Part shown: one piece after another, positions 8,759 through 17,510 of the stretch | Layout of the letters: each line of letters starts with the position of its first letter | Position numbering within the stretch: the first letter of the stretch is position 1 | Origin: Archaeoglobales archaeon | Lineage (GTDB): Archaea; Halobacteriota; Archaeoglobi; Archaeoglobales; Archaeoglobaceae | DNA: 64,000 nt | Reading direction: 5' to 3' | NCBI GenBank assembly: GCA_030055525.1 | Contig: JASFYJ010000009.1 | Location: forward strand, 1 to 64,000 | Notes under the pieces: generated by a model | What the model saw: only the letters and a program-made list of their open reading frames with translations | Told to the model about the DNA's origin: nothing | The model's database searches: none | Position numbers and translations under genes: made by a program

Positions 8759-8779
8759 TTGACGCATCAGCTCATCATT

Positions 8780-11107
8780 ATGATTAAAGCAACTTACGTA
8801 CTGCTGTTTGTTTTGTTGGCATCTTCAGTAGCCAGTGCAAGCGAAGTTATAATAACTTCAAATGCTCTCTACAGCCAAGCGAATGAGCTGAAAAGTTTTC
8901 ACGAACAGATGGGGATAAAATCAAGGATCGCGACGATTGAGGAGATATCGAAGCTTGCTGAAGCTGAAGATCCGCCCGTTTATGGCTATGCGAATGAAAA
9001 GCCATCGAGCATCGTAAACTACAACTACTCATTAGCTAAGAAGATAATTGCTTTTCTTAGAACAGTGGATGCCGAATACATCACCATCTTCGGCGACGCA
9101 GACATAGTCCCGCCAAGCTACTATGCAAAGGATTCCAATTTTGGCTTCTACCCCACAGACTTCTTCTACATGTCTCCCGACTACGATCTGAATCCAAACT
9201 TTGCTGTCGGTAGAATTCCAGTAAGCAACGCAAGCGATGCTGCAAAGGTTGTTTCTAAGATTAAAGCGTGGTATTCAGAGCTTAGCAGTGGGAATTACAA
9301 AAATGCTGTCTTCGTTGGAACCAAGATCTATGCCACATTTTCTAAGAACGATAGGGGAACCATAGAAGATTACGAAGTCTGGCAGGGAGAGTTAGCGGTG
9401 AAGCATTTGGCAGATAATGGCGTTGTTTCAAAGTTTAATCCAAGAATTCTGCTCCAGAGTGATTACAAGGCGAGTGAAATTAAGCCTTTTCTTGACGAAG
9501 CTTTTTCAGGCGGTTATGGGCTCGTTTACCACAGTGGTCATGGCACCGTTACTGGTATAGACATGGGTGGAATCGTCTACACAACTGTATACCTCAGCAA
9601 GCTTTCAAAGAAGAATCCAGTTTTGCCAGTCGTCGTTAGCGATGGTTGCAGTTCTGCTGGTTATGATGAAGAAATTATGCCATCAGACTTCAGCTCAATG
9701 TTTAACTGGGCTTCGGCGCCAAAGTATCCTTGGGCGGAATATTTGCTTCTTAACAACGCTGGAGGCATAGCATTCGTTGGCTTCACAAGAACAACTGGAA
9801 GCGATTACTTCTTCCAGATAAACAGCGGTGAAGTTCAGGTTAGTAGCGTTAAGCATGCACAGGCAATTCTGACAGAATTCACTAAGAATTTGCCCGGCAA
9901 TACACTCGGCTTAGCACTAAAAACTGCGATGGCAAGCTATTCGCCAAATGTAAAGCTAAGCCAGGCGACGAAAGCTGACGACTGGGCACTGCGTGTTTAC
10001 CTGATGGCAACGCTTATCGGTGATCCAACGCTCAGATTCCCCCAGCTCAACGATGTTGAAGTTAGCAAACCGAATTTCAGTGTAGTTGGGAGATACAGCG
10101 AAGTAAATGGAATTCCAAGCTTCGATGGATCTATTAAGTTTGTTTTCCCCGAGAGCACTACAGTAAAGCTGTTCAACTTAACAAACAAAAGCGTTCCGCT
10201 CGTTGAAGTTAAGAGGGGAGTTTACGAATACACCTTCAATCCAGAGAGCGAAGCTAAGTTCTTGCTCAGGGCTTCGAACGGATTGAGAGAAACATGGTAT
10301 ACTTTTTACGCTAAACCCAACTCAAACAGTTCAACCAATAATTCAACCATAATACCTCTCCAGATAATCTATCCGAGTTCAATCGAAGTAAGGGTTGCCG
10401 AAAGCCTCTCGGTTAAGATAGAGGCAAACAAAGATGCTTACTGCAGAATAACTTCAGCTCCGAGTGGCGTTAGCTGTAATAGCATGGTCATTACTTGGAC
10501 ACCAGTCAAGGCTGGAGACTACACGATAAATTTCGAAGTTTCCAGCGGAAGTGAAACAGTAAGCGGAAAGATAGTCGTGAAAGTTAAGAATGCAACTCTA
10601 AAACTTCTGAAGCCCGAAAATTTGGCTACAAACGTGAGCTTGCCTACTGAACTTTGCGCAAACGTCGATACATACTGCTCACTTGAGTTCTACACCACAA
10701 ACCTCATTGGCACTTCAAGTGGAAAGGGGGACATCTGCATAAAAGTGAACCTCGAAGCTGGTAAGACTTACCAGTGGTTTGTTAGGGCTAAGTGTGGCGA
10801 AGAAGTTTACAATTCCGAAGTCTGGAGCTTCACAACTTCCAGCCCATCGAATTCGACGCCAAATGAAGGAACTCCGGTAAACCTGCCTGCAGGCTCTAAA
10901 GATCTTGATGGCGATGGGCTTTATGAAGATATAAATGGAGACGGGGTTTTTGACTTCAACGACGTTGCATACTTCCAGTGGAATTACAACACACCAGACT
11001 TCCAGAACTACGTGCAGTTCTACGACTTCTGCAGAGATGGAAAGATCGACACAAAGGATGTTCTAAACCTCTACATGTTCTGGAAGTATGGAATAAAGAG
11101 ATGGTAA
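8780..11107 (+). CDS. secreted C25 (gingipain-like) cysteine peptidase with C-terminal dockerin-like domain
   Basis: 775 residues, exported. The signal peptide is MIKATYVLLFVLLASSVASA. The next 420 residues match peptidase family C25, with the catalytic histidine in HSGHG (about 251-255) and the catalytic cysteine in VVVSDGCSSA (about 290). Two Ig/fibronectin-like beta domains follow (about 530-700). The last 70 residues contain DLDGDGLYEDINGDG and, after a spacer, DGKIDTKDVLNLY, the paired EF-hand-like calcium loops of a type I dockerin. Dockerins bind cohesins; A. fulgidus is known to carry both modules. No cohesin is in this window. The ATG is chosen from the TATA distance and the signal peptide. 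Confidence 0.85.
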   Translation: MIKATYVLLFVLLASSVASASEVIITSNALYSQANELKSFHEQMGIKSRIATIEEISKLAEAEDPPVYGYANEKPSSIVNYNYSLAKKIIAFLRTVDAEYITIFGDADIVPPSYYAKDSNFGFYPTDFFYMSPDYDLNPNFAVGRIPVSNASDAAKVVSKIKAWYSELSSGNYKNAVFVGTKIYATFSKNDRGTIEDYEVWQGELAVKHLADNGVVSKFNPRILLQSDYKASEIKPFLDEAFSGGYGLVYHSGHGTVTGIDMGGIVYTTVYLSKLSKKNPVLPVVVSDGCSSAGYDEEIMPSDFSSMFNWASAPKYPWAEYLLLNNAGGIAFVGFTRTTGSDYFFQINSGEVQVSSVKHAQAILTEFTKNLPGNTLGLALKTAMASYSPNVKLSQATKADDWALRVYLMATLIGDPTLRFPQLNDVEVSKPNFSVVGRYSEVNGIPSFDGSIKFVFPESTTVKLFNLTNKSVPLVEVKRGVYEYTFNPESEAKFLLRASNGLRETWYTFYAKPNSNSSTNNSTIIPLQIIYPSSIEVRVAESLSVKIEANKDAYCRITSAPSGVSCNSMVITWTPVKAGDYTINFEVSSGSETVSGKIVVKVKNATLKLLKPENLATNVSLPTELCANVDTYCSLEFYTTNLIGTSSGKGDICIKVNLEAGKTYQWFVRAKCGEEVYNSEVWSFTTSSPSNSTPNEGTPVNLPAGSKDLDGDGLYEDINGDGVFDFNDVAYFQWNYNTPDFQNYVQFYDFCRDGKIDTKDVLNLYMFWKYGIKRW

Positions 11108-11130
11108 AACAAAAAAATTTTTATTTTATT
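11108..11130. terminator. bidirectional A/T-tract terminator between convergent genes
   Basis: A run of A followed by T-rich sequence in the 13-base gap between the C25 gene and the convergent DUF5305 gene. T tracts on either strand are the usual archaeal termination signal. Confidence 0.4.
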
Positions 11131-12011
11131 CTTACTATATAAGTTGTTGAACCGTCTGAAATCAAGAACTCGTCACCCAACCTTATAATCGGCTTATTCA
11201 GATATTCTGAAAGTTTTAAAATCTCCTCAAAGCTCTCAAGTTCAATTTTTTCAGATGATGCGCTCTTAGCTTTTACAGTTATACCCTCGTATTTCTTGAA
11301 CCTGTCTCCCTCGTAAACTTCCACCTTTTTATAAAGTACCACTGCTAAAACAAAAAGTAATGCTGAAAGAACTGCGAGCAAGTACTTTATTATTGTTATC
11401 TCGCCCCTCTCAACGATTGTCGTGTCTTTTTCAACGAACTTCTTTGTTTTTGGTTCATCTACGGTTATCTTTAACAACTTCTCCGCAATCTGAAGCGTAA
11501 TCGTCCTTGTGTACGTATAATTCGCTGCAGAACTCGAAACCCTTATCGTTACTTTCGGTTCAGAAGCCCTATAACCAAGTTCAGAACTTATTCTTTCGTA
11601 GGTGCTTATATAACCTTGAAAGTCAATAGGAATTGAGATCGAATAAAAATCCACGAAATCGTTTGAAATTTTTAGCATTTCCTTACTCCAATCCTTTGTT
11701 TCAAGAATTGCTTCGATACTGTAGTTCCCTCTAGCATCACACTTCGAACAGATCAGATTTAATTTATATAAAGCGTTGCACGATTCCGTTATGTTTACAA
11801 ATATCTTATCCGTTTCGATCTCTTTTTTTTCAAAAAGTGAATTATCTTTAAGCTTTGCGATCACCCTCAAGTCGTCTGAAAAAATTATCTCGTCGCTGAC
11901 AAACTCTAACTTGTCTATTGGATTCAAATAGAAAGCTAAAAATGCAAAAAATGCCGCAATAGAAACAAGAGAGATTATTAATATTCTAAGAGTGCTTTTT
12001 GACATCCTCAT
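11121..12011 (-). CDS. DUF5305 membrane protein
   Basis: 296 residues. There is an N-terminal membrane segment at about 9-28, an extracytoplasmic beta-rich region with two CxxC-like cysteine pairs, a second membrane segment at about 207-227 and a short cytoplasmic tail. This matches DUF5305, often found in archaea beside signal peptidase and SipW-type surface proteins. It overlaps the signal peptidase stop as ATGA, so the two are co-translated. I infer an assembly or anchoring role for the secreted proteins encoded at 13.9-17.1 kb; no catalytic motif was seen. Confidence 0.7.
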   Translation of the reverse strand: MRMSKSTLRILIISLVSIAAFFAFLAFYLNPIDKLEFVSDEIIFSDDLRVIAKLKDNSLFEKKEIETDKIFVNITESCNALYKLNLICSKCDARGNYSIEAILETKDWSKEMLKISNDFVDFYSISIPIDFQGYISTYERISSELGYRASEPKVTIRVSSSAANYTYTRTITLQIAEKLLKITVDEPKTKKFVEKDTTIVERGEITIIKYLLAVLSALLFVLAVVLYKKVEVYEGDRFKKYEGITVKAKSASSEKIELESFEEILKLSEYLNKPIIRLGDEFLISDGSTTYIVRIK

Positions 12012-13132
12012 TTAAAAACACCCCATATCTCGAGCATCTTTTTGATCCCTAAAGGTAAAAGTCCTATCTTTGGAACGACGAAGATGACCTTACCAACAAC
12101 ACGATCTTCGCTTATAGGATCGTCGGGGATTTCGTTTGCGTCTCCCTTCGTTACAAAAAATCTACCATCGTCTGTTTCAATTATATCGACTATCCTGTGA
12201 GTTACCGTATAGCCTTCGGCCATATATTGAATGATATCCCCAATATTTAAATCATCCGTATCAATTTTTGATACTATTATTACGTCTCCTGTCTGGATGC
12301 TTGGACTCATGCTACCGCTCCCTACCACTGCTGGATGAACTCCAAAGCTTCCTGTAAAAAATAGAAATGTTAGAAGTGCAATAATCATGAAAGCTATCCA
12401 CGATGCAGGGCTTTCTTTTTTTATTTCAACTTTCTTCACTTCTTTTTCCTTTTCAAGAATTGAGTAGCCTATTGCTGGCATCGCTGTTGTAACGAGAGCG
12501 TTCAGAGTCCAGTTGAGGTTGGGTAATATTGGTGAAAACCATTCAAACGCAGTGACTGGGAAGATGTAAGCTAGAGATCCCCTTGCCCCGTAGATGTAAA
12601 CTAAGAGAGAAGCAAACAACTGTTGGGTATAAACAGGAATTAAAACATTTCCAAAAAATTTTAGTTGATCTAAAGGATTTTTTGGAAAATTTAATACAAA
12701 TGGTATTATTAATATTATTGTATATAAAGTAGCCACAATTATAACTGAATTTTCTTTGAATCTTCTCGTCAGAATTTTTGCAAGATAAGTTCTGCTCAAT
12801 TCGAAACCAACTGTTGTAGAAAAAACGTAAGCCAAGTTTGTTGTTATCCCGAAAAGTGTAAAAGAATAAGGACTCTTTCCAAATCCTAGAAAGACTCCAA
12901 GGGTTACTAAGACCACTATTTGAAGAAGTGCGACGTATAAGGCGAGATATTCTGGATTTTTAAAGCTTTTAAGACGTACAGGTCGATACATGAGGTTCAA
13001 AGATTTTTTCTTTGCATCATAAATTGCTGAAAAAGCCAGAAAGGTTCCTGCCAAGATCTTCGAATAGAAGGAGAATTCTCCAGGTAGTATATGTGTTACC
13101 GCAAATACGATCAAAGCTGGAAGCGTGAGCAT
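12008..13132 (-). CDS. archaeal signal peptidase I with multi-pass membrane N-domain
   Basis: 374 residues. The first 240 hold about seven hydrophobic segments, an unusual extension. The C-terminal part is an S26B signal peptidase: GSGSMSPSIQTGDVIIV carries the catalytic serine, YTVTHRIVDI the histidine that replaces the bacterial lysine, and KGDANEIPDDP the acidic partner. It is coupled to DUF5305 and divergent from the wHTH gene at 13368. I infer a dedicated SipW-like role for the nearby cluster, separate from housekeeping signal peptidase. An AAGTTTAAGTT promoter-like stretch near 13152-13162 fits leaderless initiation. Confidence 0.85.
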   Translation of the reverse strand: MLTLPALIVFAVTHILPGEFSFYSKILAGTFLAFSAIYDAKKKSLNLMYRPVRLKSFKNPEYLALYVALLQIVVLVTLGVFLGFGKSPYSFTLFGITTNLAYVFSTTVGFELSRTYLAKILTRRFKENSVIIVATLYTIILIIPFVLNFPKNPLDQLKFFGNVLIPVYTQQLFASLLVYIYGARGSLAYIFPVTAFEWFSPILPNLNWTLNALVTTAMPAIGYSILEKEKEVKKVEIKKESPASWIAFMIIALLTFLFFTGSFGVHPAVVGSGSMSPSIQTGDVIIVSKIDTDDLNIGDIIQYMAEGYTVTHRIVDIIETDDGRFFVTKGDANEIPDDPISEDRVVGKVIFVVPKIGLLPLGIKKMLEIWGVFK

Positions 13133-13279
13133 GTAATCTTTAACATTAGCAGAACTTAAACTTTGTGTAGGTTTTTCAAATTTCCCTGTTAGAAAAAAAT
13201 TTCTACGCGGCTAAAAGGGTTTTTAAAGTCCTGAAATTTCAAAAAATGTTTTTCATACGGAAAAATTTCCTGATTATTC

Positions 13280-13315
13280 ATCATTATCACAACAATAATT
13301 ATTTCTCATAATGAT
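13280..13315. promoter_or_regulatory. nested palindromes upstream of wHTH gene, candidate operator
   Basis: ATCATTAT at 13280-13287 and its exact reverse complement ATAATGAT at 13308-13315 enclose the palindrome AATAATTATT (13294-13303). The element sits just upstream of the TATA box at 13329-13337 of the winged-helix gene, a place where an autoregulator could bind. ATAATGAT also occurs at 17087-17094 across the TATA box of the facing pilin-like gene. Confidence 0.4.
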
Positions 13316-13367
13316 ATATTTAGAAAAATTTTTATAGCACAATTACCACCAACACAAGGGGAACATC

Positions 13368-13616
13368 ATGAAACGTTCCCGCATGGAGATAATTTTTGAA
13401 ATTCTAAGGTCTGTTGAATCCGGCGTAGATACCAAAACCCGCCTCATGTATGCTTCAAACCTCGATTGGAGAAATTTTAGCCGATATATAGACTACATGC
13501 TAAAAGAGCAGCTGATTTACTGCAACAGCGAGAGATTTTATCTTACAGAGAGAGGTAGAAAGCTTCTAGGAAAGTTAAAAGATGTTTTAGAACTCTTAAA
13601 CCTCAGGCAACATTAA
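13368..13616 (+). CDS. winged-helix regulator, paralogue of the one at 17.3 kb
   Basis: 82 residues forming one winged helix of the archaeal COG3432/HTH_45 kind. It shares most positions with the protein at 17274-17510: RSRMEIIFEIL, the region RLMYASNLDWRNFSRYI and a shared TERGRKLL wing. AAGGGGA at 13356-13362 is the ribosome binding site and TTTTTATAG at 13329-13337 the TATA box. It points into the secreted-protein cluster and mirrors the second regulator, so I infer control of the cluster. It overlaps the convergent small gene by 21 bases. Confidence 0.8.
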   Translation: MKRSRMEIIFEILRSVESGVDTKTRLMYASNLDWRNFSRYIDYMLKEQLIYCNSERFYLTERGRKLLGKLKDVLELLNLRQH

Positions 13617-13772
13617 GAACTCCTTTATAGCTTCTAAATTTATTTCTATACCGTCTTTTTTTCTTTTCAGGAATCCCGCAATTTCAAATATTTCAATGAA
13701 TTCTTGGCTGAAGCCTTTTCCGTACAAAAACTTCGCAAGTTCTTTGTCCATTTCCTTGAAGATCTCGTCCAT
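13596..13772 (-). CDS. small helical hypothetical protein (58 aa)
   Basis: A 59-codon frame, starting MDEIFKEMDKELAKFLYG and ending EFLMLPEV. It is charged, predicted helical and codon-like, unlike the random frames around it. A TATA-like TTTTAAAT (plus-strand 13792-13799) lies about 24 bases before the ATG, fitting leaderless transcription. It is convergent with and overlaps the wHTH gene by 21 bases and sits between the regulator and the first pilin-like gene. I do not recognise the family. Confidence 0.5.
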   Translation of the reverse strand: MDEIFKEMDKELAKFLYGKGFSQEFIEIFEIAGFLKRKKDGIEINLEAIKEFLMLPEV

Positions 13773-13826
13773 AAAAAGAATTGTCTTAATAATTTAAAAG
13801 TTTTATGCGTCTCAGAAATGTTGTTT

Positions 13827-13838
13827 AAGCATATGCTT
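13827..13838. promoter_or_regulatory. 12-bp palindrome, candidate operator of first pilin-like gene
   Basis: AAGCATATGCTT is a perfect palindrome ending 89 bases before the ATG at 13928. AAGCATATGC recurs at 17137-17146, 86 bases upstream of the facing paralogue at 17051. The same motif at the same distance on two mirrored genes suggests a shared regulator site. Confidence 0.45.
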
Positions 13839-13927
13839 TTTGCATGTGTTTCTTTTCTGTGTTTTATTTTCACAAATTATTTTAATCTCCATAAAGTGGT
13901 TAATTCAACGAAAAGGAGGTGGGATGA

Positions 13928-14401
13928 ATGAGGAAGTTCGGAGCGATGTTTGTCGTTCTGCTCGTAGCTCTCGGCTTAGTGGGAGCGACCTATGCGGTTT
14001 GGACTGATACAGTTAAAGTGAGTGGAACTGTTTCGACTGGAACATTCGATGTGAAATTCACGGATGTTGAATGCGATGAAGTAGATTATGCAACTATTGG
14101 TGCATATGTCGATGGCGACAATGCTGTGGTGAACATTCAAAATGCATATCCAGGGCTTGAAGTTAGCTGCACATTTACAGTCGAAAACGCTGGAACGGTT
14201 CCAGCAAAAGCTATTAGCTTGAGCTATACTCCAAATCCACTACCGAACTATGTTACAGTTACAGGAATTCCACAATCTTTAACCTTAAATCCTGGCGAGT
14301 ATCAGGATATCACTGTAACCTTAACATTTGATTCAGATAATACACCTGAAGAAGCTTTATTCACCTATGAAGTAACTGTAAAGTTCCAGCAAGCCACATA
14401 A
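13928..14401 (+). CDS. SipW/TasA-type secreted protein, short form (copy 1)
   Basis: 157 residues. The N terminus MRKFGAMFVVLLVALGLVGA leads to TYAVWTDTVKVSG, the pattern of SipW-dependent signal peptides followed by the mature start of TasA/camelysin-like fibre proteins. The rest is predicted beta sandwich with the cluster motif IQNAYPGLEV near residue 75. Strong AAGGAGGT at 13913-13920 sits 7 bases before the ATG. Its closest relative in the window is the facing 16560-17051 gene. I infer a secreted fibre subunit processed by the peptidase at 12.0-13.1 kb; bacterial TasA and archaeal bundling pili are the known comparisons. Confidence 0.75.
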   Translation: MRKFGAMFVVLLVALGLVGATYAVWTDTVKVSGTVSTGTFDVKFTDVECDEVDYATIGAYVDGDNAVVNIQNAYPGLEVSCTFTVENAGTVPAKAISLSYTPNPLPNYVTVTGIPQSLTLNPGEYQDITVTLTFDSDNTPEEALFTYEVTVKFQQAT

Positions 14402-14404
14402 TAA

Positions 14405-14435
14405 CACCTAAAAACTTTTTTCTTTTTAAAAGGTG
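14405..14435 (+). terminator. possible leaky terminator/attenuator between two pilin-like genes
   Basis: CACCT at 14405-14409 can pair with AGGTG at 14431-14435. Two T tracts lie between them (14416-14421 and 14423-14427). AGGTG is also the ribosome binding site of the next gene. The element could stop part of the transcripts and mask the site on the rest, giving more of the first subunit than the second. Confidence 0.35.
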
Positions 14436-14441
14436 CAGAAA

Positions 14442-15125
14442 ATGACAGCGAAAATGCTTTTGCTTCCGCTGATCATCGTTGCGCTCAGCGTGAGCTATTC
14501 GGTTTTCACGGATTCAGTGAAGGTCAGCGGGCAAGTGACGACTTCGAACCTCGAGTGGAGATACGTAGATGGATCTTTTGAATATGGAGACTACAAATTG
14601 GAAAATGGGGAATTCAATCCTCAATCGCCTAATATAGTAGGGGAGAATCTTGGCACAGTAAATTGTGATGCGGAAGACATCCAAAATGGTGCAACTACCT
14701 TCTCTTGCACGATAAGCAATGCATATCCTGGCTATGGTTTTTACGTGGACTTCAAAATCAAGAACACTGGTGAAATACCCTCAAAGCTCAAGCAAATCTT
14801 GGTTGATTGCAGCGGAGCTAATTGCGAGCAGAATGGAGTAGCACAATCAATGAGAATTGCTTATAGACTAAGCTACAACACCACCGGGGGACTCCAAAAC
14901 GAGAATCCCGATGGGGGATACATCGCTGGATTGACCATAAGCCAATTCGCGGATAACGTTACTCAGAAATTAAGTGGCAAGATTTTCAACAAAAATGGAT
15001 GGATAAAATTCGGCGGTGATGAAGGAAACACGATCTACTTCTACTTCCCCTATTCCTCAAACCCACCACAAGGCGAAACGCTTAGATTCAACATAACATT
15101 CGTATTCACGCAGTTCAATAGTTAA
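14442..15125 (+). CDS. SipW/TasA-type secreted protein, long form (copy 1)
   Basis: 227 residues. The signal segment MLLLPLIIVALSVSYSVFTD passes into SVKVSGQVTT, again SipW-like. ISNAYPGYGFYVDFKIKNTG carries the cluster motif, with four cysteines in the first half. The C-terminal FNKNGWIKFGGDEGNTIYFY resembles the paralogue at 15822-16544. I chose the ATG at 14442 because AAAGGTG at 14429-14435 precedes it with proper spacing; a GTG at 14433 lies inside that site. Probably a second fibre component or cap. Confidence 0.7.
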   Translation: MTAKMLLLPLIIVALSVSYSVFTDSVKVSGQVTTSNLEWRYVDGSFEYGDYKLENGEFNPQSPNIVGENLGTVNCDAEDIQNGATTFSCTISNAYPGYGFYVDFKIKNTGEIPSKLKQILVDCSGANCEQNGVAQSMRIAYRLSYNTTGGLQNENPDGGYIAGLTISQFADNVTQKLSGKIFNKNGWIKFGGDEGNTIYFYFPYSSNPPQGETLRFNITFVFTQFNS

Positions 15126-15127
15126 GC

Positions 15128-15808
15128 ATGAAAACAAAGCTTTTACTATTTTTTGTCCCCTTGCTTTTGATTCTGCCCTCTTTATCGCAGTTAGAAAACT
15201 ACACGATCTCTTGCTTAAACGTGAACTGGATCCTGATTCTGCCTTCCGATTCATATCTCTGGAATTCCGCGGATTATGCGGATATTAAGCTTGGTTATAA
15301 TAGCGAATGCGTTGTGAACTGCAAAAAGTCGTGCAGTTGCGAAGAATTGGCTGAGCTGAAAGTTCAGAAGCTAGATGAGCTTGTTTTCAGCGTTCAAAAC
15401 GCCTATCCTGGCTATGCAATCGTTTTCTACCCGGTGTTCATAAACATAGGAATTCCATCGACGCTTAAAGATGTCAGAGTTGATTTCGATGAAGACGCAA
15501 AGACTGCATTCTTTGTTTACTACAAAACCAACCCTCTGGATTCTAAGATTTACAAGATCTCTATTATTGGCTACAACCTTAGCGAAGTTGGCAAAATCCT
15601 TAAAGAACAGCTAAAAGATAAGAAATTCTCCTACGGTGGATGGATTGCTTTTTCAAAGCCATTTGGAAAGCATAGAATTGAGGAAAAGGTAATCTCAAAA
15701 GCGGAATTTGATTTTGACGAAGGACTCTGGATTTACTTTGAAGACTTAAGCCAGAATCGGGTTTTAAATTACAAGATCGAGTTTATTTTCTCTCAGGCTA
15801 AAAATTAA
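15128..15808 (+). CDS. secreted NAYPGY-motif protein, divergent member
   Basis: 226 residues starting two bases after the previous stop. It has a classical signal peptide (MKTKLLLFFVPLLLILPSLS) but lacks the WTD/FTD mature start of its neighbours. It carries a cysteine cluster CVVNCKKSCSC near residue 60 and the cluster motif VQNAYPGYAIVFYPVFINIG near 90. FSYGGWIAFSKPFG matches the GWIKFGG region of the long forms. It has no mirror partner. It may be a minor or tip subunit, but no function is known. Confidence 0.65.
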   Translation: MKTKLLLFFVPLLLILPSLSQLENYTISCLNVNWILILPSDSYLWNSADYADIKLGYNSECVVNCKKSCSCEELAELKVQKLDELVFSVQNAYPGYAIVFYPVFINIGIPSTLKDVRVDFDEDAKTAFFVYYKTNPLDSKIYKISIIGYNLSEVGKILKEQLKDKKFSYGGWIAFSKPFGKHRIEEKVISKAEFDFDEGLWIYFEDLSQNRVLNYKIEFIFSQAKN

Positions 15809-15821
15809 AAAATAAAGGAAT

Positions 15822-16544
15822 TTACTGGTTGAACTGCACGAAGTTGAACTTAATGCTGAAGTTCAGGTTGCTGTTCATCGGTATGTTTGAGCAGTATGGG
15901 AAGAAGAAGTATATCGTGTTCTCCTCTCCCTCACTACCGCCGGTGTTTGCGTTCTCCTCTTCACTGAGCTCATCGCCAAAGCAGATATATCCGCCAGGCT
16001 TGAAGACTATCCCTGCGATATCGTTCTCAATTGCTGTTGCTAGATCTTCAAGGCTCTTGTTTGTGTATATTTTAGTTACACTCCATGCAAATGGGCTTGT
16101 CTTATAGGTTATCTTTGCCGAAGCCTTCAGATAGCTTGCAAGGACTGCGTTATCGTAGGTTACATCGATATCCTTAAGCTTCGAAGGTAGATTGCCCGTA
16201 TTCTTTATGCAGAAATCGGTCGCAAAGACATAGCCAGGATATGCGTTGACGACGTTGATGTTAACTACCATGTTCTCCGCATCGTATGTCCCAGTTGTGG
16301 TTCCATAGTTTTCGGGCCAATATAAATAGCATCCCCCTTCAAGTGGGGCGCACTTCTGCTTCAGATAGTAATCTTTGAAAGTTGGATATTCCCAACAGCT
16401 TACGATTATGTCCCAGTCCATCTCCGTTGTTGTAACTTCATTTGGATCGTTTTGCACTCCAATCTCAAGTCCGTCTCCCCAGTTAGCGTAGCTAAAGCTC
16501 ACTGCAAACAGTGCAAGGAAGATGCTCAGATATTTTATGTTCAT
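15822..16544 (-). CDS. SipW/TasA-type secreted protein, long form (copy 2, inverted)
   Basis: 240 residues. Signal peptide MNIKYLSIFLALFAVSFSYA is followed by NWGDGLEIG. VVNAYPGYVFATDFCIKNTG holds the cluster motif, and FKPGGYICFGDE plus NTIYFFFPYCSN match the copy at 14442-15125. The sequence is cysteine-rich and ends FNFVQFNQ, like the endings of its relatives (FNS, FNQ). GGTGA just upstream favours the ATG at 16544 over the GTG at 16556. It follows the short copy by a few bases in one transcript. Confidence 0.7.
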   Translation of the reverse strand: MNIKYLSIFLALFAVSFSYANWGDGLEIGVQNDPNEVTTTEMDWDIIVSCWEYPTFKDYYLKQKCAPLEGGCYLYWPENYGTTTGTYDAENMVVNINVVNAYPGYVFATDFCIKNTGNLPSKLKDIDVTYDNAVLASYLKASAKITYKTSPFAWSVTKIYTNKSLEDLATAIENDIAGIVFKPGGYICFGDELSEEENANTGGSEGEENTIYFFFPYCSNIPMNSNLNFSIKFNFVQFNQ

Positions 16545-16559
16545 CTCTCTCACCACTTA

Positions 16560-17051
16560 TTACTGGTTGAACTGTCCAGCATCGATCGTTATTGTGTAAG
16601 TGTAGGTCGTTTCTTCCTGTGCATTGTTATTTACGGTATTTGTAACTGTCAAGGTCTTTGTTCCGGGAACCGGGATTATATCTCCAACGCTAACTCCGCT
16701 TAATCCAACACTAATTTCGCTATTCGGGTTGTTCACAGTCAAAGCAGTTATCTTAGCGGGAATTGTTCCTACATTGCTTATTACCAAGCTACAAGTCGCT
16801 ACATAGCCTGGATATGCGTTTGATACAGTAATATTTGCCTCCTTTCCTCCCGGCTTAATTGCACATGATGGCACTCCAACATCGTATAGATTTTCGTTGT
16901 CCGAACAGCTACAGCTTGTAAATTGCAGATCAAGCTCTCCAGTTGCCACACTACCGTTTATTACCAGCTGATCCGTCCAGCCGGCAAAGGTTGCTGCCGT
17001 AACGCCAAGCGCTACAAGCAACCCCACAAACATTATTCCAAACTTTTTCAT
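16560..17051 (-). CDS. SipW/TasA-type secreted protein, short form (copy 2, inverted)
   Basis: 163 residues. MKKFGIMFVGLLVALGVTAA then TFAGWTDQLVINGSVATGEL is nearly the copy-1 N terminus. VSNAYPGYVATCSLVISNVG carries the cluster motif. A small cysteine patch CSCSDN lies near residue 50. GAGGTGATTAG precedes the ATG, and ATTATATAAT at 17082-17091 is the TATA box. It heads a leftward two-gene unit that mirrors the rightward one. Confidence 0.75.
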   Translation of the reverse strand: MKKFGIMFVGLLVALGVTAATFAGWTDQLVINGSVATGELDLQFTSCSCSDNENLYDVGVPSCAIKPGGKEANITVSNAYPGYVATCSLVISNVGTIPAKITALTVNNPNSEISVGLSGVSVGDIIPVPGTKTLTVTNTVNNNAQEETTYTYTITIDAGQFNQ

Positions 17052-17081
17052 CTAATCACCTCAGAATATTTACTGTAGACA

Positions 17082-17091
17082 ATTATATAAT
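17082..17091 (-). promoter_or_regulatory. TATA box of inverted pilin-like operon
   Basis: ATTATATAAT centred 36 bases before the ATG at 17051, leaving a leader of about 10 bases that holds the GAGGTG ribosome binding site. Confidence 0.5.
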
Positions 17092-17125
17092 GATTTTGTG
17101 ATAAAAACATATGATTAAATCTCAG

Positions 17126-17175
17126 GAGATGGTCTCAAGCATATGCCACAAGAAAAAAGCGCGGGAGATGATCTC
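17126..17175. promoter_or_regulatory. paired GAGATNNTCTC palindromes, candidate operators
   Basis: GAGATGGTCTC at 17126-17136 and the perfect palindrome GAGATGATCTC at 17165-17175 are spaced 39 bases start to start. AAGCATATGC (17137-17146) directly abuts the first. They lie upstream of the leftward pilin-like promoter. Three CATATG hexamers also occur between 17108 and 17205. Confidence 0.4.
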
Positions 17176-17223
17176 GAGACAGTATCACCATACAAAACCA
17201 TATGACTTAAACACAAACTTTTA

Positions 17224-17286
17224 GTAAAATAGCGAGTAAGATTGTCTAGGAGAGAATTGCCTAGACTGGGTGCTCAGACCGCTATT
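17224..17286. other. nested inverted repeat around wHTH stop codon
   Basis: AAAATAGCG and CGCTATTTT (9-bp perfect arms) enclose GTCTAGG and CCTAGAC (7-bp perfect arms, 9-base loop). The outer right arm is inside the last codons of the wHTH gene. It could be a transcript 3' end structure, a small RNA or a regulator site. No T tract follows on either strand. Confidence 0.4.
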
Positions 17287-17510
17287 TTCTGAATCTCGCG
17301 CAGCTTTCTAAGCAATTCTCTACCTTTTTCAGTAATCTCGTAACCGTCGTTGTAGACAAGATAATTTTCTTTCTCCAGGTAGCTAATATACCTGCTAAAA
17401 ATCCTCCAGTCCAAATTGGTCGCATGCATCAGCCTACTCTTACCTTTTATCCCTCTCTCCACACATTCCAGAATTTCAAAAACTATCTCCCATCGAGATC
17501 TACGAACCAT
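17274..17510 (-). CDS. winged-helix regulator, paralogue of the one at 13.4 kb
   Basis: 78 residues, one winged helix starting MVRRSRWEIVFEILECVE, with RLMHATNLDWRIFSRYISYL closely matching the regulator at 13368-13616. The ATG at 17510 is preceded by GGGGGGAAG, a ribosome binding site; the frame extends 8 codons upstream without support. Together the two regulators bracket the secreted-protein cluster and point inward. Confidence 0.8.
   Translation of the reverse strand: MVRRSRWEIVFEILECVERGIKGKSRLMHATNLDWRIFSRYISYLEKENYLVYNDGYEITEKGRELLRKLREIQKIAV

Follow-up and report, generated by a model that had tools for sequence, protein, structure and literature searches.

A mirrored locus with a fused signal peptidase that probably encodes AbpX/TasA-type fibres in an Archaeoglobales genome

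What is built by a group of small secreted proteins that is laid out as two mirrored gene sets beside a signal peptidase (SPase) and a DUF5305 protein, and what does the mirror symmetry mean? The question is raised by a 64-kb stretch of contig JASFYJ010000009.1 (assembly GCA_030055525.1; a heat-loving Archaeoglobales archaeon, family Archaeoglobaceae), which is called the window below. An original prediction from the letters of the window had placed a SipW/TasA-like fibre locus with a dedicated peptidase, resembling archaeal bundling pili (ABP), at 11121-17510. The locus is here assigned, with good probability, to the donor-strand-linked extracellular fibre systems of the AbpX/TasA superfamily. 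To our knowledge the start of TasA-type fibres at the membrane is an open question, especially where TapA is missing, and we judge the fused peptidase domain together with DUF5305 to be the part of the locus with the most promise.

From left to right the block consists of a C25 peptidase gene with a dockerin (rightward), the genes for DUF5305 and SPase (leftward), the winged helix-turn-helix (wHTH) regulator H1 (rightward), a small gene X (leftward), the short subunit S1, the long subunit L1 and the unpaired, L-related subunit U (all rightward), and finally L2, S2 and H2 (leftward). H1-S1-L1 is termed arm 1 and H2-S2-L2 arm 2. The open reading frames named in the prediction are all present; X (13596-13772) was not listed in it, and its interval stops short of the C25 gene (8759-11107), which belongs to the conserved block. 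The five secreted proteins are the following.

13928..14401, + strand: S1, short subunit with SipW-type signal peptide (M73 and TIGR04088 over cut-off; beta-sandwich AlphaFold2 model; AbpX profile match)
14442..15125, + strand: L1, long subunit; GTG at 14433 as a second possible start (open reading frame list, pairing test, L profile)
15128..15808, + strand: U, subunit related to L and without a partner (orthologous to subunit three of the relative L001, tree support 99/98)
15822..16544, - strand: L2, long subunit; GTG at 16556 as a second possible start (pairing test, AlphaFold2 model, match to a TasA fibre in the PDB)
16560..17051, - strand: S2, short subunit with SipW-type signal peptide (TIGR04088 over cut-off, pairing test, S profile)

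All five carry the NAYPG motif, as predicted, and the motif appears also as a five-copy DNA repeat, D1. Among solved structures the nearest in sequence is AbpX (PDB fibres 9sj2 and 9rhp), which is matched by the S profile at E 1.1e-14 and 7.5e-9 and by the L profile at E 1.4e-6. The alignment of the S profile covers about 90 residues only, spanning the N-terminal donor strand WSETLSLSATISTG, whose counterpart in S1 is WTDTVKVSGTVSTG in the profile alignment, and the AYPG and NxGTIPA motifs (AYPG...NVGTIPA). In 9rhp the WSETLSLSATISTG strand also matches the C-terminal end of the chain, which in our reading is as expected of a strand-complemented construct. According to PMC11952670, AbpX of Pyrodictium abyssi forms a donor-strand-exchanged, ABP-like fibre.

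Signal peptides and predicted folds agree with these profile matches. S1 passes the Pfam camelysin model M73 (28.8 bits, cut-off 22.5), and the SipW-signal model TIGR04088 (cut-off 19 bits) is passed by S1 (26.5), S2 (20.0) and the S protein of L001 (23.7). Signal cleavage is placed at TYA/VWTD in S1 and TFA/GWTD in S2, so that the predicted mature proteins would start with VWTD (S1), GWTD (S2), VFTD (L1), NWGD (L2) and QLEN (U). The P2' residue is thus aromatic in S1, S2, L1, L2 and relatives, with U the exception. The same residue makes TasA a poor substrate of Escherichia coli LepB, and Bacillus subtilis uses SipW (PMC10269814). The AlphaFold2 model of S1 (predicted local distance difference test score, pLDDT, 89.5) is an eight-stranded beta-sandwich in which the first 18 residues are unpaired in the single chain, as would be expected of a donor strand in a lone chain. 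With Foldseek, the TasA fibre 8aur ranks first among the PDB structures matched by the L2 model (pLDDT 78.7), at E 5.8e-3 and probability 0.91; it also has the highest query template modelling score (TM-score; 0.46) among the matches listed for the S1 model. These structure matches support the TasA-type class and stop short of proof. Together with the AbpX profile, M73 and SipW-signal matches they support the fibre locus that had been proposed.

Several results weigh against this assignment. The TasA equivalog NF046066 (cut-off 450 bits) gave 15.4 bits with S1 and the SipW equivalog NF046067 (cut-off 190 bits) gave 69.3 bits with SPase; therefore the locus is not TasA/SipW proper. TIGR04088 was missed by L1 (12.7 bits) and gave no score with L2 and U; in U, moreover, P2' is not aromatic and most of the donor-like N-terminal strand is missing. 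Neither the S1 nor the L2 model has a PDB match at E<=1e-3 with Foldseek, and the S1 model resembles many immunoglobulin-like (Ig-like) folds too. The candidate roles in regulation described below, an operator and an attenuator, are both drawn from nucleotide sequence. The generic Ig-like Foldseek matches would also suit monomeric or small-complex surface proteins, either adhesins or S-layer-associated Ig-like proteins, which merely share a SipW-type signal and a fold with fibre subunits. Such proteins would also fit the CARDB-, HYDIN- and ASH-type Ig matches given by Pfam for S1 and S2, and the low model confidence of the inserts in L2. They are nevertheless considered improbable, as the solved protein nearest in sequence, AbpX, is a fibre subunit and the similarity to it takes in the N-terminal donor segment.

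Two genes form the processing pair that is proposed for both subunit sets.

12008..13132, - strand: SPase, N-terminal membrane domain of about 235 residues fused to an S26 peptidase of the endoplasmic reticulum (ER) type (Peptidase_S26, TIGR02228)
11121..12011, - strand: DUF5305 family protein, adjoining SPase downstream (family label through orthologues)

SPase, which had been predicted next to the subunits, passes Pfam Peptidase_S26 and TIGR02228 (1.5e-28; 99.7 bits against a cut-off of 51.85), and by the latter model it is classed as an archaeal-type signal peptidase. Its SipW-like Ser-His dyad, Ser274 in SGSM and His312 in HR, is invariant in the 12 archaeal and bacterial sequences compared. 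So is the FGKSPYS part of the FGKSPYSFT motif in the N-domain. The N-domain gave no match in Pfam or the PDB. A literature search returned nothing linking the string FGKSPYSFT with a signal peptidase and nothing mentioning DUF5305.

The DUF5305 label of the original prediction is supported through relatives only. A Pfam DUF5305 search of the genome returned nothing and the protein has no Pfam match at E<=1; against PF17231 (cut-off 29 bits) an orthologue with 43% identity to it reaches 28.4 bits, the next orthologue 60.8 and the bacterial ones more than 110. The protein has two hydrophobic, potentially transmembrane segments (about residues 4-33 and 203-233) and a short C-terminus; the region between the segments is presumably external. 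In 12/12 related loci DUF5305 lies immediately downstream of the fused SPase.

The co-occurrence of these genes extends through two domains of life. Among 394 genomes of the phylum the SPase N-domain is found in four, exactly those with a full-length S; the four are related, and the count does not represent four independent events. The fused SPase-DUF5305-subunit combination is also present in Clostridia, Dehalococcoidia and Deltaproteobacteria. In the bacterial loci, subunits of the WTD...NAYP...QWNE type are encoded upstream of the peptidase, except in L005, whose contig begins at the peptidase. The N-domain is present in 10 of 46 genomes from one bacterial class, all 10 within the 11 that have DUF5305. 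This distribution suggests exchange of the set between domains of life, with no direction assigned. Three of the bacterial loci (L002, L003 and L004) encode several paralogous WTD/NAYP subunits each, one of them 628 residues long (L003:1714-3600).

The following course of assembly is proposed. All subunits would be exported by Sec, S as major subunits and L and U as minor subunits or caps, and the dedicated ER-type peptidase would cleave them so that a single residue precedes the aromatic one. The freed N-terminal strand of one subunit would then complete the beta-sandwich of the next, leading to polymerisation, while subunits are probably retained or passed on at the membrane by DUF5305 and the membrane domain of SPase. 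It is tempting to go further and regard the N-domain and DUF5305 as an undescribed, usher-like assembly platform for TasA-type fibres, common to Archaeoglobaceae and several bacterial phyla, which takes over subunits at cleavage and starts strand exchange; this proposal is tentative and rather less likely than its opposite. A conserved, unnamed peptidase domain whose presence follows that of subunits and DUF5305 from one genome to the next, in archaea as in bacteria, makes the pair concrete candidates for the start of the fibre. The bacterial counterparts point to cultured hosts for testing, and the set is present in Heliobacterium mobile and Pseudobacteroides cellulosolvens.

The known systems differ from the locus in several parts. 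A TasA-related donor-strand fibre, the ABP, was reportedly described by Wang and co-workers in 2022 from a hyperthermophilic archaeon; its subunit AbpA was absent from the matches of the PDB sequence search. With TasA-SipW-TapA of B. subtilis and the camelysins the locus shares the beta-sandwich, the P2' aromatic residue, a dedicated ER-type peptidase and several subunits. Unlike that system, it has a peptidase with a fused N-terminal membrane domain, adjoining DUF5305 and C25 peptidase genes, and a wHTH regulator instead of SinR. The threads of Sulfolobus acidocaldarius (Saci_0406) are archaeal donor-strand fibres processed by signal peptidase I (PMC9715654); in contrast to the window, no dedicated peptidase is described in the portion of that source consulted, and Saci_0406 gave no sequence match to the window proteins.

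The mirror symmetry was examined with the regulators included.

13368..13616, + strand: H1, wHTH regulator of the HTH_45/Sso10a family (HTH_45 1.6e-24; NF053610 over cut-off)
17274..17510, - strand: H2, wHTH regulator paired with H1 (HTH_45 5.6e-23; 53% identical to H1)

At the protein level, arm 1 (rightward) and arm 2 (leftward) are a mirrored duplication to which the unpaired U is added, as had been predicted. Global identities are 51% for H1/H2, 37% for S1/S2, 38% for L1/L2 and 38% for U/L1. In a pairing test with 300 shuffles the z scores were 36 (H1/H2), 19 (S1/S2) and 34 (L1/L2), and U was placed in the L family with z 15-17 to L1 and L2; 0/300 shuffles matched any of the real scores. 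U might be a terminal or capping subunit. Within this genome H1 and H2 are most similar to one another (53%; next best 33%), so the regulator was duplicated along with the subunits. No long palindrome was found between the arms at the DNA level (longest inverted match 30-32 nt at 72-80%), and the duplication is therefore old or fast-diverging.

In relatives the module is single. L001 (Archaeoglobus sp. GB_MAG2_100, with the same genes as genome G004), found by the peptidase scan, has one co-directional copy, wHTH-S-L-U-SPase-DUF5305, facing the C25-dockerin gene; its U is the orthologue of the U of the window. G038 has wHTH-S-L-SPase-DUF5305 facing C25, and G037 has the same order until its contig ends inside the peptidase. 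With S and L profiles the module was detected in G000, G004, G037 and G038 among 59 genomes of the class, with weak extra matches in G039 (L) and G026 (S), which gives an overall frequency of about 4-5/59. Weak extra matches in G039 (L047) and G172 (L067) were inspected and judged unrelated or too distant. In G035, DUF5305 and C25 are retained at a contig end, and the fibre part may simply be unassembled. Since contigs break inside DUF5305 in G035 (L089) and inside the peptidase in G037 (L045), the locus seems hard to assemble and its frequency may be underestimated. The recurrence of wHTH, subunits, SPase and DUF5305 in other Archaeoglobi agrees with the synteny that had been anticipated, and peptidase and DUF5305 co-occur strictly; the symmetry is absent in L001, G037 and G038, each with a single co-directional copy, and is not supported as part of the system. 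The mirrored duplication is real and is known from this one genome. Compared with L001, the right arm L2-S2-H2 keeps the ancestral direction relative to SPase, DUF5305 and C25, and H1-S1-L1-U is inverted.

The two arms share some small elements around the S genes and differ in others.

13596..13772, - strand: X, gene of 58 residues, divergent from S1 and overlapping the 3' end of H1 (homologous open reading frame in L001)
13827..13838, no strand: palindrome AAGCATATGCTT, candidate operator, about 90-101 bp before the S1 start (sequence)
17139..17146, no strand: palindrome GCATATGC, candidate operator, about 90 bp before the S2 start (sequence)
14408..14431, + strand: terminator-like T-tract between S1 and L1 (comparison of S-L gaps)

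L001 carries a homologous 58-residue open reading frame in the position of X (z 12.6, 0/1000 shuffles). In G037 and G038 the slot holds a different small protein, HTH_5-like in G037, and no counterpart of X was found in arm 2. The palindrome GCATATGC occurs twice in the window, once before S1 and once before S2, at roughly -90 to -99 in each case; a shared 8-bp palindrome at a matching offset was obtained in 0.06% of shuffles (p 0.0006), for a motif that was picked after being seen. In L001 its place is taken by ATGTGC-N5-GCACAT at -101. Transcription of S may be controlled at the palindrome by the wHTH protein and X. T-tracts are present in the S-L gaps of arm 1, L001, G037 and G038, and none lies between S2 and L2. 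Archaeal terminators are T-rich, so S should be made in excess over L, with arm 2 as the exception, and the T-tract after S would lower L in arm 1. No RNA family was found in an Rfam search of the locus region.

The best explanation of the arrangement is an inverted duplication of the H-S-L unit in this species, which has two subunit sets and one shared processing pair. Acquisition of arm 2 from another lineage with the same module is a possible but less favoured origin. By identity the arms are no nearer to each other than to the copy in L001, and no topology was rejected by quartet trees that set the arms against relatives; the duplication may thus be older than the split, the arms may have diverged quickly, or one arm may have been acquired. 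The patchy distribution of the module would fit acquisition, but an adjacent, mirrored and complete three-gene unit is the usual outcome of inverted duplication, and no donor was found. It had further been suggested that the paired subunits are expressed alternately, so that the arms would be alternative fibres switched by twin regulators in phase or antigenic variation. Two diverged sets with separate regulators are compatible with this, as is the different wiring of arm 2, which is without X and the T-tract. Against it speak the near-identical DWRxFSRYI helices of H1 and H2 and the palindrome that the two S genes share, both of which suggest common or cross-regulation, as well as the single copy in relatives. 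A switch by inversion is rejected, since the locus genes include no recombinase and the arms are without long inverted repeats. Alternation is accordingly thought unlikely. With inverted duplication as the origin, the locus is a natural experiment on subunit divergence under one shared processing pair.

A second, more classical SipW-type locus is represented in other Archaeoglobi by L092, L094 and L095, where several YFSDTE-type subunits, an S26 peptidase and DUF5305 follow in the same order in all three, as in the window; L092 and L095 are headed by an HTH_45 regulator. Their peptidase has a C-terminal and not an N-terminal membrane extension, and, unlike in the window, no C25/dockerin gene was seen adjoining. 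The order wHTH-subunits-SPase-DUF5305 is thus general, the window being a variant with an N-terminally fused peptidase and a C25 neighbour. That neighbour is as follows.

8759..11107, + strand: C25-family (gingipain/PorU-like) peptidase with C-terminal dockerin (Peptidase_C25 1.4e-44; Dockerin_1 below cut-off)

In each of the four Archaeoglobi with a full-length C25-dockerin gene, this gene and DUF5305 are convergent. Its orthologue in L001, at the same place, is 51% identical, and others are present in G038 and G035. A C25 protein of G001 is without a dockerin and has no fibre genes adjoining. The HG and GC catalytic motifs of the window protein look intact by eye, and the peptidase could act in the release, trimming or anchoring of fibres.

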